Of a stretch of 21,000 bases of DNA, positions 1 to 5,396 are shown one piece after another. Within the stretch, counting starts at the first letter, position 1, and every line of letters starts with the position of its first letter. This DNA is from a virus: positions 1 to 21,000 of IMG/VR virus record IMGVR_UViG_3300042465_002626; one strand, written 5' to 3'. The notes under the pieces were generated by a model. It was not told the DNA's origin and searched no databases. It saw nothing but the letters and a program-made list of their open reading frames with translations. A program made the translations under genes and the position numbers.

Positions 1-855
1 AAAGTAACACAATTTTTCTTTATCAAACCAAATTTCAATCATTCCAATATTTCCGTTTGAACGTGGTTTAATTTTATTAAAGTGTAATTCAGCTAAATTA
101 AATGTAGGGTCTTGCCTGTGTACTGTAATCATACATTTACCACTATTGAACCATTCGCTGCCACCTTTTAAATCGTAAGGAACAGGAGCGTTTCTTTTTC
201 CGTTTTCTTTTTCAGTTAGTTTAGGGTGTATAATTGTATGCAAATGTAAATCGTTGTCTTCTGCTATTTGGTTTCTATACGGCAAAACATATTCTAAATA
301 TTGTGCATAGCCACCGTAATCGTTATATGGGTGGTTTAAGTCCTTCCAACTATCAATTGAAGCTGTGTGTAGTTCATCGTGTTTTTTTAGTTCAACAGCC
401 ATATCCCAAAATTGAATTGGTGTAAGTTTTGCCTTAACATCTTTTTTAGTTAATACCTTAAAATGTTCTAAAACCCAATCAATAGCTTGTGTTATTTCTT
501 TGTCTTCAATCGTGTTCCGGTCTAATGGGTTAAAACTTTTGCCTGTTTTCTTATGTATTAAATCAGCAATTATTTCTACATTAGAACCAACATCAGGGAA
601 ATAAACTAAATGCTTCCAACCATAAAATTTAGAAGTATTCATTAAACATTCCATTAATACTTGCGTTTTACCGCTCATAGGGAAACCTGTCCAATCCGTA
701 CAATTTCCTAAACTCATAGAATAATGTTCGTGTAAACTTTTAAATCCTAAATATTTGCCTTTATTATTGTAATTGTCTCTATACTTAAATAGTTGAGTAA
801 TTACGTCTCCAGCTTCGGTTATTTTATATCCATTTAACTCCACGGTGCTTTCCAT
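1..855 (-). CDS. DnaB-like replicative helicase (RecA-fold ATPase), 3' end beyond window
   Basis: Likely the phage replicative helicase, unwinding DNA at the fork. The frame is open for 285 codons from an ATG at 855-853 to the window edge, so the C-terminus is missing. Seen: a Walker A motif GFPMSGKT at residues 57-64; a hydrophobic strand ending in Asp (ASID, D168) that fits Walker B; and later TIIHP and VHRQD stretches typical of the DnaB/RecA core. Only about 50 residues precede the Walker A, so neither a DnaB N-terminal domain nor a TOPRIM/primase domain is present in the visible part. The ATG overlaps the end of the upstream organiser gene by 22 nt; an in-frame GTG at 843 is an alternative start. 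The tight coupling to a winged-helix organiser is the usual loader-helicase arrangement. The helicase call is inferred from motifs; another phage RecA-fold ATPase is the alternative. Confidence 0.82.
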   Translation of the reverse strand, partial: MESTVELNGYKITEAGDVITQLFKYRDNYNNKGKYLGFKSLHEHYSMSLGNCTDWTGFPMSGKTQVLMECLMNTSKFYGWKHLVYFPDVGSNVEIIADLIHKKTGKSFNPLDRNTIEDKEITQAIDWVLEHFKVLTKKDVKAKLTPIQFWDMAVELKKHDELHTASIDSWKDLNHPYNDYGGYAQYLEYVLPYRNQIAEDNDLHLHTIIHPKLTEKENGKRNAPVPYDLKGGSEWFNSGKCMITVHRQDPTFNLAELHFNKIKPRSNGNIGMIEIWFDKEKLCYF

Positions 856-1457
856 TTTTTAGGTTCATTAACTTCTTGTATTTCTATTGGTTTTTCCCAA
901 GTCCTTACACAAGCCTTCCAATCTATCATTTTATTTTTACCAACCATCCAACCTTTAGAAGAATAAAAATTTAAAAATTTGTTTACATCAACTCCGTTTT
1001 TTCGTTGTGTACAATATTCAAGTATTTCATTAAAAGTAGGTTCTATAAATATACTTCTTTCATTCTTTTCATTCTTAACATTCTTGTTAGTGTTCGTTTG
1101 CTTTATCGTTTGGTGTTCGTTTGCGTTATCGTTTGCTTGGTACTCTTTGTACTTAACTATTGATATTAAAGTAGTTACATTGTTTTTTTGCCTTACTATA
1201 TTTTTATCATTTTCTAACGAATTTAAAAACCTTTCAACTTTGCCCCTTGACCATTTCCAGCGCTTACCTAAACTATCAATATCGTAACCAACTTGTCCTT
1301 CTTTTACATCAACTCGAATACCACGTTTATAAAAATATCCTTCTTTGTGGTTTGCTAATAATAATAAATCAATCCAAGCGTGTGTCCTATCAAATGGCTC
1401 ACAATTGTAAATTGGGTTTTCTAATAAACACCTGTGTACTTTAATCCAACCTTTCAT
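834..1457 (-). CDS. Winged-helix replisome organiser / helicase loader-like protein
   Basis: A 207-aa protein of the phage replication-initiator type. Its N-terminal half (about residues 3-110: GWIKVHR, AWIDLLLLANHK, then RWKWSRGKVERFL) has the pattern of the winged-helix domain common in phage replisome organisers and DnaD-like proteins. A polar Asn/Thr/Lys linker follows (about 112-135). The C-terminal part (about 140-190, ending DWKACVRTWE) resembles the DnaD/DnaB2-like helicase-contact domain. It is followed, with a 22-nt overlap, by a DnaB-like helicase, which supports a role in origin binding and helicase loading. It sits directly downstream of a promoter and a structured leader with an intrinsic terminator, so its expression may be attenuated. 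The family assignment comes from remembered sequence pattern, not from a search. Confidence 0.7.
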   Translation of the reverse strand: MKGWIKVHRCLLENPIYNCEPFDRTHAWIDLLLLANHKEGYFYKRGIRVDVKEGQVGYDIDSLGKRWKWSRGKVERFLNSLENDKNIVRQKNNVTTLISIVKYKEYQANDNANEHQTIKQTNTNKNVKNEKNERSIFIEPTFNEILEYCTQRKNGVDVNKFLNFYSSKGWMVGKNKMIDWKACVRTWEKPIEIQEVNEPKKWKAPWS

Positions 1458-1472
1458 ACTTTAATTTTTTTT

Positions 1473-1502
1473 AAATAAAAAACCCCTGTTGAATCCGCAG
1501 GG
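1473..1502 (-). terminator. Intrinsic terminator/attenuator before replisome organiser
   Basis: On the minus strand a CCCTG (1502-1498), 9-nt loop, CAGGG (1488-1484) hairpin is followed by GTTTTTTATTT. It lies 16 bp ahead of the organiser ATG, at the end of the leader. Its first two bases (CC) are also the last two of the leader's 8-bp closing stem, so the two helices compete. The stem is only 5 bp, so strength is uncertain. Confidence 0.6.
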
Positions 1503-1566
1503 TCTCACTTCTGCTTCATTAACAAGGGTTAATAATTTTTTTTGTTCTATTACGTGAGACCGAACC
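1473..1566 (-). ncRNA. Structured leader or small RNA, about 94 nt
   Basis: A transcript from the promoter at 1573-1602 would begin near 1566 with GGTTC and go straight into GGTCTCAC (1561-1554). That sequence pairs perfectly with GTGAGACC (1508-1501). The 45-nt interior holds a second hairpin, ATTAAC-CCTT-GTTAAT (1533-1518). The closing stem abuts and shares two bases with a terminator hairpin that ends in a U tract. The layout fits either a free-standing phage small RNA or a cis attenuator of the replisome organiser gene that starts at 1457. I do not recognise it as a known riboswitch or RNA family. Confidence 0.5.
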
Positions 1567-1572
1567 ATATCG

Positions 1573-1602
1573 CAAATATAATAATTACTTTTAAATAAAC
1601 AC
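1573..1602 (-). promoter_or_regulatory. Bacteroidetes-type promoter for leader RNA and replication genes
   Basis: The -7 element TATATTTG (1580-1573) fits TAnnTTTG exactly. Nineteen bases upstream lies GTG (1602-1600) where the consensus has TTG, a two-of-three match. The predicted start is about 7 nt downstream, near 1566, right at the 5' edge of the leader's closing stem. The site lies between the DnaA-like stop codon (1606) and the leader. Confidence 0.55.
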
Positions 1603-1605
1603 GAA

Positions 1606-1962
1606 TTAATAAAATTTATTTTTTATTCTTAATTGAATTTTACGCAAGTCTTTTAAGTTCTTTGCTTCTTTTATTTCTTTTCTTAAGTCAAGTTCTGGAC
1701 GTTCTAAACTCAAAAGCAATTTGTAGTATTCTATGTCGTGTAAAAATAACTTGTCGTTTACATCGCTTAAGTCTTGGTAAGTTTTTAAACCGTGTAGTAT
1801 TGTTGCGTGGTTCATATTAAATAAACTTCCAATTCCTTTAAGTGTGTGTCCGTCTTCGCGTAGCTTTCTAAACAAATAAATTCTCCTGTGTACTATTTCA
1901 CGTTTTCGGTTTTTTTGTGCAAGTCCGTCTTGTTCGATTATTTCTTTTATTAGTTCTATCAT
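1606..1962 (-). CDS. Free-standing DnaA domain IV-like DNA-binding protein
   Basis: A 118-aa protein. Residues about 18-62 (RKREIVHRRIYLFRKL, LKGIGSLFNMNHATILHGLK) match the C-terminal DNA-binding domain (domain IV) of DnaA, including the helix-turn-helix and the [DN]H-[AT]-T-[IV]-[LH]-[HG] signature at about N51-G58. There is no AAA+ ATPase domain, so it is not a full DnaA. The remaining residues are charged and helical. Known: DnaA domain IV reads DnaA boxes at origins. Inferred: this protein recognises phage origin or operator repeats, or interferes with host DnaA. Its ATG overlaps the end of the 94-aa gene upstream by 4 nt, and it is followed by the replication leader, organiser and helicase. 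Confidence 0.72.
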   Translation of the reverse strand: MIELIKEIIEQDGLAQKNRKREIVHRRIYLFRKLREDGHTLKGIGSLFNMNHATILHGLKTYQDLSDVNDKLFLHDIEYYKLLLSLERPELDLRKEIKEAKNLKDLRKIQLRIKNKFY

Positions 1963-3559: not shown

Positions 3560-3608
3560 ACAAAAAAAAACAGCTGCGTGCTGGGGAGCTTACAACTGTT
3601 TTCTTTTT
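3560..3608 (-). terminator. Strong terminator closing the late transcription unit
   Basis: On the minus strand AACAGTTG (3600-3593) pairs with CAGCTGTT (3576-3569), 8 bp with one G-U. The loop contains a smaller GCT-CCCC-AGC hairpin, and an uninterrupted run of T follows (down to 3562). It lies 51 bp past the GIY-YIG stop codon and ends the run of late genes. The plus strand also has a T-rich tail (TTCTTTTTTT), so it may work in both directions. Confidence 0.75.
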
Positions 3609-3623
3609 TTCAACTATGAATGA

Positions 3624-3651: not shown

Positions 3652-4326
3652 CTAAAAAATATGCGAAACTTTACGTTTCCATTTAAATTTTTTATAACTT
3701 TTTAATTTGTCATTTATACATAAACTTATAGATGAAATATTATAGTCTAATTCTCTTTTAATATCCATTAAACAATTCCATTCTTTTACAAATTTATTGT
3801 CTAAATCAAATTGTAATACTTTAATACTTCTTGGGTGTTGTTCTGAAAAAATACCTTTTCTATTACTTATCCTTCCTTTTCTACCTTTACTTTTATTAAT
3901 TTCATCAGTAAATTTTATTCCTGTTTTAGTCAAAGATATTTTGTCTTTTGTTTCTTGAGTGTGTTTTTTACCTAACCAATTTTGATTGCCCATTGAAGCT
4001 TCAGACATTTTCTTTAAAGTCTCAATTGAAACTTTTCCGCTTTTATCGTTTGTTTTTGTTAAAACACAATTTAAACCATTATTAAGACAATTATATAATT
4101 CTTGATAATACCTTTCATAATTATTTAATTCTTGTTCCAAACATTCTTGAACTATTTCAAATATATGATTAACAACACCATATTTTAAAAAAGACCTGTG
4201 TAACTTTATTTGTTTTTTATTTTTAACATACATTCTTTTATAACCAATAAATCTTTTTTCAATATTTACACTTTGACCTATGTAAATTTTATTGCTTGGA
4301 CTTGTTATTTTATAAATTCCTATCAT
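3652..4326 (-). CDS. GIY-YIG homing endonuclease with NUMOD DNA-binding repeats
   Basis: A 224-aa free-standing homing endonuclease. The N-terminus carries the GIY-YIG nuclease: GIY at 3-5, YIG at 15-17, the conserved Arg at about 25 (EKRF), and a candidate catalytic Glu at about 71 (NYERYYQELYN). A NUMOD3-type segment follows (about 108-136: SEASMGNQNWLGKKHTQETK, then KISLTKTG), then a second short repeat (about 143-158). The last 50 residues (KVLQFDLDN, EWNCLMDIKREL, then NISSISLCINDKLKSYKKFKW) look like NUMOD1. This is the layout of T4 Seg and I-BmoI relatives, which cut a specific site and spread their own gene. It sits between the phosphoesterase gene and the terminator, a typical insertion position. 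It looks more AT- and Lys/Asn-rich than its neighbours. No intron is evident. Confidence 0.85.
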   Translation of the reverse strand: MIGIYKITSPSNKIYIGQSVNIEKRFIGYKRMYVKNKKQIKLHRSFLKYGVVNHIFEIVQECLEQELNNYERYYQELYNCLNNGLNCVLTKTNDKSGKVSIETLKKMSEASMGNQNWLGKKHTQETKDKISLTKTGIKFTDEINKSKGRKGRISNRKGIFSEQHPRSIKVLQFDLDNKFVKEWNCLMDIKRELDYNISSISLCINDKLKSYKKFKWKRKVSHIF

Positions 4327-4358: not shown

Positions 4359-5396
4359 TTAAAAAACGTGGGTAATTCGGGCGACTTGCCCAAATTCTTT
4401 GTGATGTATGTAACCTTCAACCGCTTTTGGAACTCCTGTATATCCGTTTTTATGATGCCAACTGTCGCTTCCTGAAGGACTGCGTAACGTTTCAAATGTT
4501 ACTCCGATGAAATCTTTACTTGTTTTGTGGTGTATATGGTGCGAATAAATATATCGGTGTTTAGTTTCGCTCCAAAGTATTGGAAATTCAGTTGCTAACA
4601 ATAACGGTAAGTGTTCGATTTTCGCTCCGTCTCCGTGTGTAGTTCCGATTAGATTGTTTCCGTATTTAAACGCCTTACGATGCTTTAAATCTACGTTAAA
4701 ATTGATTGTGGACTTGCTAAAGTGTGCTTCGATTAATTGCATTAAAAAGAAACCGTGCGTTAAGTCGTGATTGCTTGGATTGTAAACAACTTCGACTTCA
4801 GCGAAACTTAATAACTTTTCTAACAAATCAATGTATAGATTTTTAGCCATTATAAAATTGTCGTACCACATTCCGTCCGTGTCTTGTGGTGTTCCACCTG
4901 TTGTAGTTCGCCTTGTGTTGTCGGTGTGTAATATGTCGTTTCCTGCAACAAATAATACTTTGTCAATATAAAACCCTTTTGCTTTGTTTAAAATGCCTTG
5001 TAGTCCTTCTTTTGCACGTTTAACGGCAATCTGTGAATTATAGTCTTCGCCTGTTTCAAATGCTGTTGCAAGTTTTCCTATATGTAAGTCCGCAATATCA
5101 ATTACAAGTAAATGCGTGTCTTCGCTTTTAATAGTTTCTATTGCGTGGTATTTCGGAGCGTATAACTTTACTTCTTTTATACATTCGTCTTTTATTTGTT
5201 GAATAGCGTTTAGTTCTTCCTGTTTAAAGTTTGGGTTCTTAAAGAACAAAGAAGCTTGTTTAGTTTTTAGCCAACCGTGTTTAACGTCTTTGTCATCAAC
5301 TCCAGCTTCATCGGTTGCTTCTTTTATTCCACGATACTGCATAAGTATTTCAATTTCGTCTTGTTTTAAACGAAACCTTGCGCTGCTATTTTTCAT
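4359..5396 (-). CDS. Calcineurin-like metallophosphoesterase
   Basis: A 345-aa enzyme of the binuclear metallophosphoesterase fold. Metal-ligand motifs occur in the expected order: D-L-H (103-105), GND (152-154), NHD (209-211, within NPSNHD), a lone His in THGDG (H254), and H-x-H in SHHIHH (287-289). The first 60 or so residues precede the catalytic domain and look like a small helix-turn-helix (YRGIKEATDEAGVDD). Known: such enzymes hydrolyse phosphodiesters or phosphomonoesters, and some act on DNA ends or cyclic nucleotides. The substrate here cannot be told. It follows the lysis genes with a 7-bp gap and precedes the homing endonuclease, an unusual place for a nucleic acid enzyme. The final residues ARITHVF close the fold, so it looks complete. 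Confidence 0.82.
   Translation of the reverse strand: MKNSSARFRLKQDEIEILMQYRGIKEATDEAGVDDKDVKHGWLKTKQASLFFKNPNFKQEELNAIQQIKDECIKEVKLYAPKYHAIETIKSEDTHLLVIDIADLHIGKLATAFETGEDYNSQIAVKRAKEGLQGILNKAKGFYIDKVLFVAGNDILHTDNTRRTTTGGTPQDTDGMWYDNFIMAKNLYIDLLEKLLSFAEVEVVYNPSNHDLTHGFFLMQLIEAHFSKSTINFNVDLKHRKAFKYGNNLIGTTHGDGAKIEHLPLLLATEFPILWSETKHRYIYSHHIHHKTSKDFIGVTFETLRSPSGSDSWHHKNGYTGVPKAVEGYIHHKEFGQVARITHVF

Follow-up and report, generated by a model that had tools for sequence, protein, structure and literature searches.

Genes and sequence features of the locus

We examined positions 1-21,000 of the virus record IMGVR_UViG_3300042465_002626; this whole stretch of 21,000 nucleotides is called the window below, and the RNA element described here lies on its minus strand. 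Upstream of the element is a gene for a protein of 118 amino acids (1606-1962, minus strand) that matches the C-terminal, DNA-binding domain of DnaA just below the family cut-off (PF08299, E = 6e-7). The protein comes without the ATPase domain and may bind the phage origin or act as a regulator; its gene lies outside the RNA and is found upstream of it in most members of the class that includes the window (class I). Downstream, the first gene encodes a DnaD-like helicase loader of 207 amino acids (834-1457, minus strand; phrog_2514, E = 7e-26). The second gene of this operon, cut by the window end, encodes a helicase-like ATPase (1-855, minus strand; phrog_5482, E = 1e-74) that also matches the primase/helicase family phrog_18375 (E = 5e-14).

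A candidate promoter -7 element of the Bacteroidota TAnnTTTG type, TATATTTG, was recognized from its sequence at 1580-1573, with a predicted transcript start at 1566, both as described in an earlier note on this DNA. Position 1566 opens the 5' arm of helix P1 (GGUUC, 1562-1566), whose 3' arm is GAACA (1543-1547); in the window P1 has four standard pairs, formed by the core GUUC (1565-1562) and GAAC (1547-1544). Within the loop of this first hairpin lie the 5' arm of helix P2, GGUCUCAC (DNA GGTCTCAC, 1561-1554), and a GUAAUA segment (1548-1553) that leads from P2 to the P1 3' arm. An A-rich linker (1530-1542) joins hairpin 1 to hairpin 2. The stem of the latter is P3, with the arms ACCCUUGU (1529-1522) and ACAGGGGU (1489-1482), and its upper part (1494-1517) comprises a purine internal loop (GAA, 1517-1515; GGA, 1496-1494) and helix P4 (GCAG, 1514-1511; CUGC, 1500-1497). 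The P2 3' arm, GUGAGACC (DNA GTGAGACC, 1508-1501), sits in the apical loop of hairpin 2 and is a perfect 8-bp complement of the 5' arm. A U-tract (1477-1482) follows P3, and 19 nt separate its end at 1477 from the ATG of the helicase-loader gene at 1457. The arms of P1, P2 and P3 were assigned by covariation, the upper part of hairpin 2 by conservation and covariation, and the U-tract by the T count after P3 in homologues.

Folding the window sequence by itself gave a minimum-energy structure that contains P3 and P4, with an unremarkable z-score of -1.9. Such a fold is uninformative here, because the tool models neither pseudoknots nor crossing helices.

Two further features lie elsewhere on the minus strand of the window. 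An unrelated terminator-like hairpin (AAACAGTTG..CAGCTGTTT) followed by a T run occurs at 3567-3610 in an AT-rich gap of ~400 nt and likely marks a boundary of gene blocks. A GIY-YIG/NUMOD3 homing endonuclease is encoded at 3652-4326.

Covariation supports two hairpins joined by a kissing loop

Two protein searches of viral contigs yielded 44 and 80 loci, and in many of them the same element followed the stop codon of the dnaA-like gene. Several sequence types could be told apart, which differ in their letters and have the shape in common. A first alignment of 32 distinct sequences, with P2 treated as a pseudoknot, had 95.9% of its cells paired and 152 double-changed cells versus 47 in shuffles. 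We then built a covariance model (R1) from P1, P3 and P4 only, leaving P2 out. With R1, most of the RNA-bearing phage contigs of ~20-30 kb gave a single strong hit, and several relatives gave no hit. A degenerate pattern for the 3' half of the RNA added many further divergent members from viral contigs among the matches listed, and members on contigs of two Sphingobacterium genomes.

Among the matches listed, R1 aligned 89 distinct sequences, one of which is a partial class II-like element (see below). In this alignment the four-helix structure was paired in 98.6% of 2,200 cells (shuffle mean 69.7%) and carried 622 double-changed cells against a shuffle mean of 171. Pairing was 98.9% for P1, 97.0% for P3 and 99.7% for P4, with changes on both sides in five of five, six of eight and four of four pairs, respectively. 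P2, although outside the search model, was paired in 99.6% of cells, with six of its eight pairs changed on both sides and 185 double-changed cells versus 56 in shuffles; sliding its partner by 1-3 columns lowered the pairing to 27-45%. Judging from the counts for the four helices and for P2, together with the slid-partner control, we consider the element to be one RNA with a kissing loop. The comparison of homologues thus shows four covarying helices and a kissing topology for the predicted transcript. The earlier note had staked its structure on compensatory changes in homologues, and these were found; the perfect 8-bp stem that it had pointed out is P2. Its 5' edge had been placed at 1566, which is instead the edge of P1, as the 8-bp stem starts at 1561.

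In 5' to 3' order, P1 (5 bp) is followed directly by the P2 5' arm and a short loop ending in AUA, the whole loop of hairpin 1 measuring 14 nt. After the linker, which is 13-14 nt long in 75 of 88 homologues, hairpin 2 consists of P3, GAA/GGA, P4 (4 bp), an invariant A and the P2 3' arm, with the U-tract last. P2 joins the loops of the two hairpins by 8 bp and crosses the other helices, i.e., it forms a kissing loop. Conservation among 88 sequences reached 97-100% for the GAA/GGA internal loop and 98-100% for the AUA of the loop segment. Taken as a set, an unpaired A and the AUA beside P2, the GAA/GGA loop and the A preceding the P2 3' arm were conserved at 94-100%. In all, ~15 nearly invariant positions outside the terminator stem and U-tract are concentrated in three places: the distal end of P2, the AUA loop and the GAA/GGA loop. 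The RNA therefore has a feature known from riboswitches, namely conserved unpaired nucleotides inside a compact pseudoknotted fold. The genes themselves point to no particular ligand. The P2 5' arm itself exists in 32 distinct versions among the 88 sequences.

Promoter, terminator and distance to the first gene

The flanks of the RNA were then compared among homologues picked to differ by more than about 5%, which are related to each other, so that the following counts are not independent. In 72 of 83 distinct homologues, TAnnTTTG precedes P1 by 3-7 nt, most often by 5 nt, and in one more by 11 nt; among background windows, 1.4% contain it. At least five T within the 8 nt past P3 were present in all 85 homologues and at least six in 83. 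Hairpin 2 has the makings of an intrinsic terminator, i.e., a G+C-rich stem and a U-tract directly after it. Hence, P3, the purine internal loop and P4, together with the U-tract, are the predicted terminator, and we infer from these signals that transcription starts at P1 and stops at the U-tract. An ATG that opens at least 40 codons begins 5-29 nt past P3 in 82 of 85 homologues, compared to 15% at random places. Between P1 and that ATG, none of these 82 leaders contains a second promoter of the TAnnTTTG type. The layout is that of an attenuator leader: a promoter, a terminator and the first gene, with no intervening TAnnTTTG.

These comparisons also bear on how the terminator was drawn in the earlier note. 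Its hairpin CCCTG/CAGGG can be drawn in the window; in the homologues it was paired in 49.7% of cells against a shuffle mean of 51.5% and did not covary, and the conserved stem is P3. The same applies to an inner hairpin ATTAAC/GTTAAT, which was paired in 51.3% of cells (shuffle mean 48.5%), again without covariation. The note had also derived a switch from two bases common to the 8-bp stem and the terminator; the conserved P3-P4 hairpin shares no base with P2. Thus, the promoter-driven, discrete and structured leader of ~90 nt that has a terminator and precedes replication genes holds up, and the proposed switch does not. Since P2 and P3 have no base in common, they could exclude each other only sterically, and by geometric reasoning the four helices appear able to exist side by side in one molecule.

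Gain, loss and exchange of the cassette

The kind of operon downstream of the RNA is kept across very different phages: a loader-like family (D0) adjoins the RNA or is separated from it by one small gene, and the helicase (D1) comes next. The gene upstream of the RNA varies. Annotations downstream include a DnaD-like helicase loader, DUF6291, a DnaB- or primase/helicase-like ATPase, NinG and HNH/NUMOD4 insertions. In seven relatives the whole cassette is absent and the dnaA-like gene abuts the next gene. Because these relatives join the two genes directly, promoter, RNA and terminator seem to come and go together. As a separate observation, NUMOD4/HNH homing-endonuclease genes have been inserted repeatedly ~13-14 nt past the end of the RNA (four loci).

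Chromosomal copies were rare, with hits in five of 301 genomes of the Sphingobacterium family sample, in one of 395 genomes drawn from the phylum and in one of 397 of the Zobellia family. On re-examination by eye, six of these seven hits show P2, which is not part of the model; the remaining one (L463) lacks it and is doubtful, probably false. The cultured Bacteroidota phages P12024S, 11b, 6H and RAP44 contain no credible copy (best E = 0.19). A DNA-level search of GenBank phages retrieved no relative of the window or of RNA types B and D, and scanning genomes for the dnaA-like protein family likewise gave no relative. Judged from the collections searched, the element is mainly one of Bacteroidota phages that are seldom integrated.

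When phages with dnaA-like genes of 92-97% identity are compared, their RNAs are 63 to 100% identical, without a trend. This spread fits recombination of RNA cassettes; as mosaicism is common in phages, such allele exchange does not by itself indicate selection for diversity. One contig, IMGVR_UViG_3300044639_000820, carries two class I RNAs of different types. At 47,246 bases it has ~1.5 times the usual genome size and may be a chimera, two phages having been merged by the assembly.

A second class of kissing-loop leader

More distant phages carry an element of other sequence, with the same plan and in the same genomic place, which we call class II (L200-L202, L207-L210 and L329-L371, before DUF6291-like replication genes). 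Its hairpin 1 reads AUUG-GUCGGA-CAAU, and the loop kisses a UCCGAC of the terminator hairpin, which has an AGUA/GAAA internal loop that resembles a loop-E motif. Over 12 sequences, 98.3% of cells were paired, with 18 double-changed cells versus 6.7. Furthermore, a sequence-independent scan for a promoter, kissing hairpins and a terminator gave 113 distinct hits when run on the viral loci, and no hit after these loci had been reversed; as most of the 113 are members already known, the scan tests the architecture rather than serving discovery.

Class II-like elements also occur in phages that have class I. In L140, a close relative of the window that shares its contig with L002, a class II element occupies 4564-4658, ~2.4 kb downstream from the class I RNA. 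It precedes a homing-endonuclease gene and further genes, one of which seems, by visual inspection, to encode an Erf-like annealing protein. Others are located at 3513-3608 in L216, near 3956 in L272 and near 110-13 (minus strand) in L287; these elements, too, precede homing-endonuclease or other genes. Their presence beside class I suggests that a phage can carry several such leaders.

A probable attenuator of the replication genes

Considering the structural and genomic data together, we think that the element is probably a cis-acting transcription attenuator of the phage replication genes that operates via loop-loop pairing. Transcription would start at P1, and the nascent RNA would fold hairpin 1, whose loop presents the P2 5' arm; hairpin 2 would fold next with the P2 3' arm in its loop, and the two loops would kiss. 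RNA polymerase would be stopped by hairpin 2 and the U-tract, giving an RNA of ~90 nt, and the promoter at P1 would supply the loader/helicase operon only when polymerase reads through. A putative signal, be it a ligand, a protein or an RNA, would determine whether the kissing loop is formed or blocked and thereby set how often polymerase stops. Both the control of stopping by P2 and the existence of a signal are what we infer from the arrangement. We favor this reading because the RNA has its own promoter, a terminator without a later TAnnTTTG promoter, a narrow spacing to the first gene and a conserved type of operon behind it. The near-constant linker is as expected for an intramolecular contact, and the second class, which has the same architecture in the same place and also stands before another gene cluster, counts in its favor. 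What speaks against an attenuator is the compatibility of the four helices, owing to which the sequence reveals no alternative fold that would let polymerase read through. Moreover, some relatives do without the cassette, so control by the leader is not essential.

The anatomy of promoter, ~90-nt body and terminator is also that of a complete small-RNA gene. The element might therefore be a discrete phage small RNA that acts in trans and lies beside replication genes by chance, its kissing loop stabilizing it or presenting a surface to a host or phage protein. Such a gene would agree with the single strong copy in most near-complete RNA-bearing contigs searched, and with an element that is cleanly present or absent where the genes on both sides are much alike. 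However, nothing would make an independent RNA gene keep a narrow distance to an ATG without a TAnnTTTG promoter in between, or a conserved operon downstream while the upstream gene varies, and the position of the second class before another gene cluster does not fit either; we regard this reading as unlikely. Less likely still is a constitutive promoter with a terminator that insulates, the pseudoknot merely protecting the RNA or tuning a fixed, unregulated read-through. Joint gain and loss of promoter and terminator and the ability of all four helices to form at once would suit it, but a plain terminator needs neither a covarying loop-loop helix nor the nearly invariant positions outside its stem and U-tract.

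Two proposals involve contacts between molecules. The terminated ~90-nt RNA could pair with nascent leaders of the same type and alter their termination, acting as a copy-number or superinfection-immunity determinant, to which we give a slim chance; pairing in trans of the P4 CI type is possible given the self-complementary loops. If it were so, the P2 loop alleles would be immunity types swapped by recombination, similar to P4 CI and made of one self-complementary RNA. Alternatively, loop 1 might pair with loop 2 of another molecule to build multimers with a structural role in the phage, as in a pRNA-like or dimerising RNA. Within each sequence type both loops are complementary, as the many distinct P2 5' arms illustrate, so intermolecular pairing could occur. 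The near-constant linker, which fits a contact inside one molecule, the location at a replication operon and not at packaging genes, and the lack of an Rfam match make this highly improbable. An anti-CRISPR repeat mimic was considered as well and found no support in the Rfam comparison, the one comparison made for it.

Comparison with known RNAs

The window has no match at gathering score in Rfam 15, which includes the guanidine riboswitches, c4, pRNA and Flavo-1; the best sub-threshold match was ClpQY_promoter on the plus strand, with 21.4 bits against a cut-off of 42. This agrees with the earlier note, which knew of no described family of this shape. We found no description of such an RNA in the open-access literature searched. 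Hence, we rate the element as a new RNA family whose function is akin to that of leader attenuators. To our knowledge, few regulatory RNAs are known in Bacteroidota phages, and a sizeable undescribed family appears to head their replication operons. Because it covaries strongly, keeps a narrow distance to the replication genes and is gained and lost as a module, this RNA could be a convenient model in which to study how RNA controls the replication of phage DNA. The members found on contigs from two named Sphingobacterium genomes would offer a growable system, as would the element of Sphingobacterium alimentarium DSM 22362.

Several characterized RNAs share parts of this plan. The packaging RNA of phage phi29 (pRNA) has two loops that can kiss; unlike pRNA, the phage leader gives no Rfam match, and its position and constant linker favor an intramolecular leader. 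In type III toxin-antitoxin systems, ToxI is arranged as a promoter, a pseudoknotted RNA and a terminator followed by a gene. A type III antitoxin was rejected here, as tandem repeats are absent, the window holds one copy and replication genes, beginning with the helicase loader, lie downstream. The c4 antisense RNA of phages P1 and P7 is a short phage RNA that pairs with a nearby leader. The c4 family is listed as RF01695 (PMC2864571), and the element described here differs from it in structure, hosts and gene context and has no Rfam match.

Two systems come closer. In the satellite phage P4, the CI RNA is a small RNA from the leader of the replication operon that stops transcription through its pairing with complementary sequences on either side of it, seqA and seqC (PMC4825925). 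Both are small RNAs in the leader of a phage replication operon; in our case, however, both pairing partners belong to a single RNA of ~90 nt and covary, and the phages are seldom seen as integrated elements. In the guanidine-IV (mepA) riboswitch, the nearest precedent in mechanism, a kissing loop involving the terminator hairpin has been proposed to drive read-through (PMC11611296). The phage leader differs in its sequence, in the lack of an Rfam match, in its occurrence before replication genes of Bacteroidota phages and in loop-pairing sequences that vary with compensation, and guanidine binding has no support. Both have a kissing loop with the terminator hairpin whose proposed role is to choose between stop and read-through, and the leader may add to the natural examples of terminators governed by a kissing loop.
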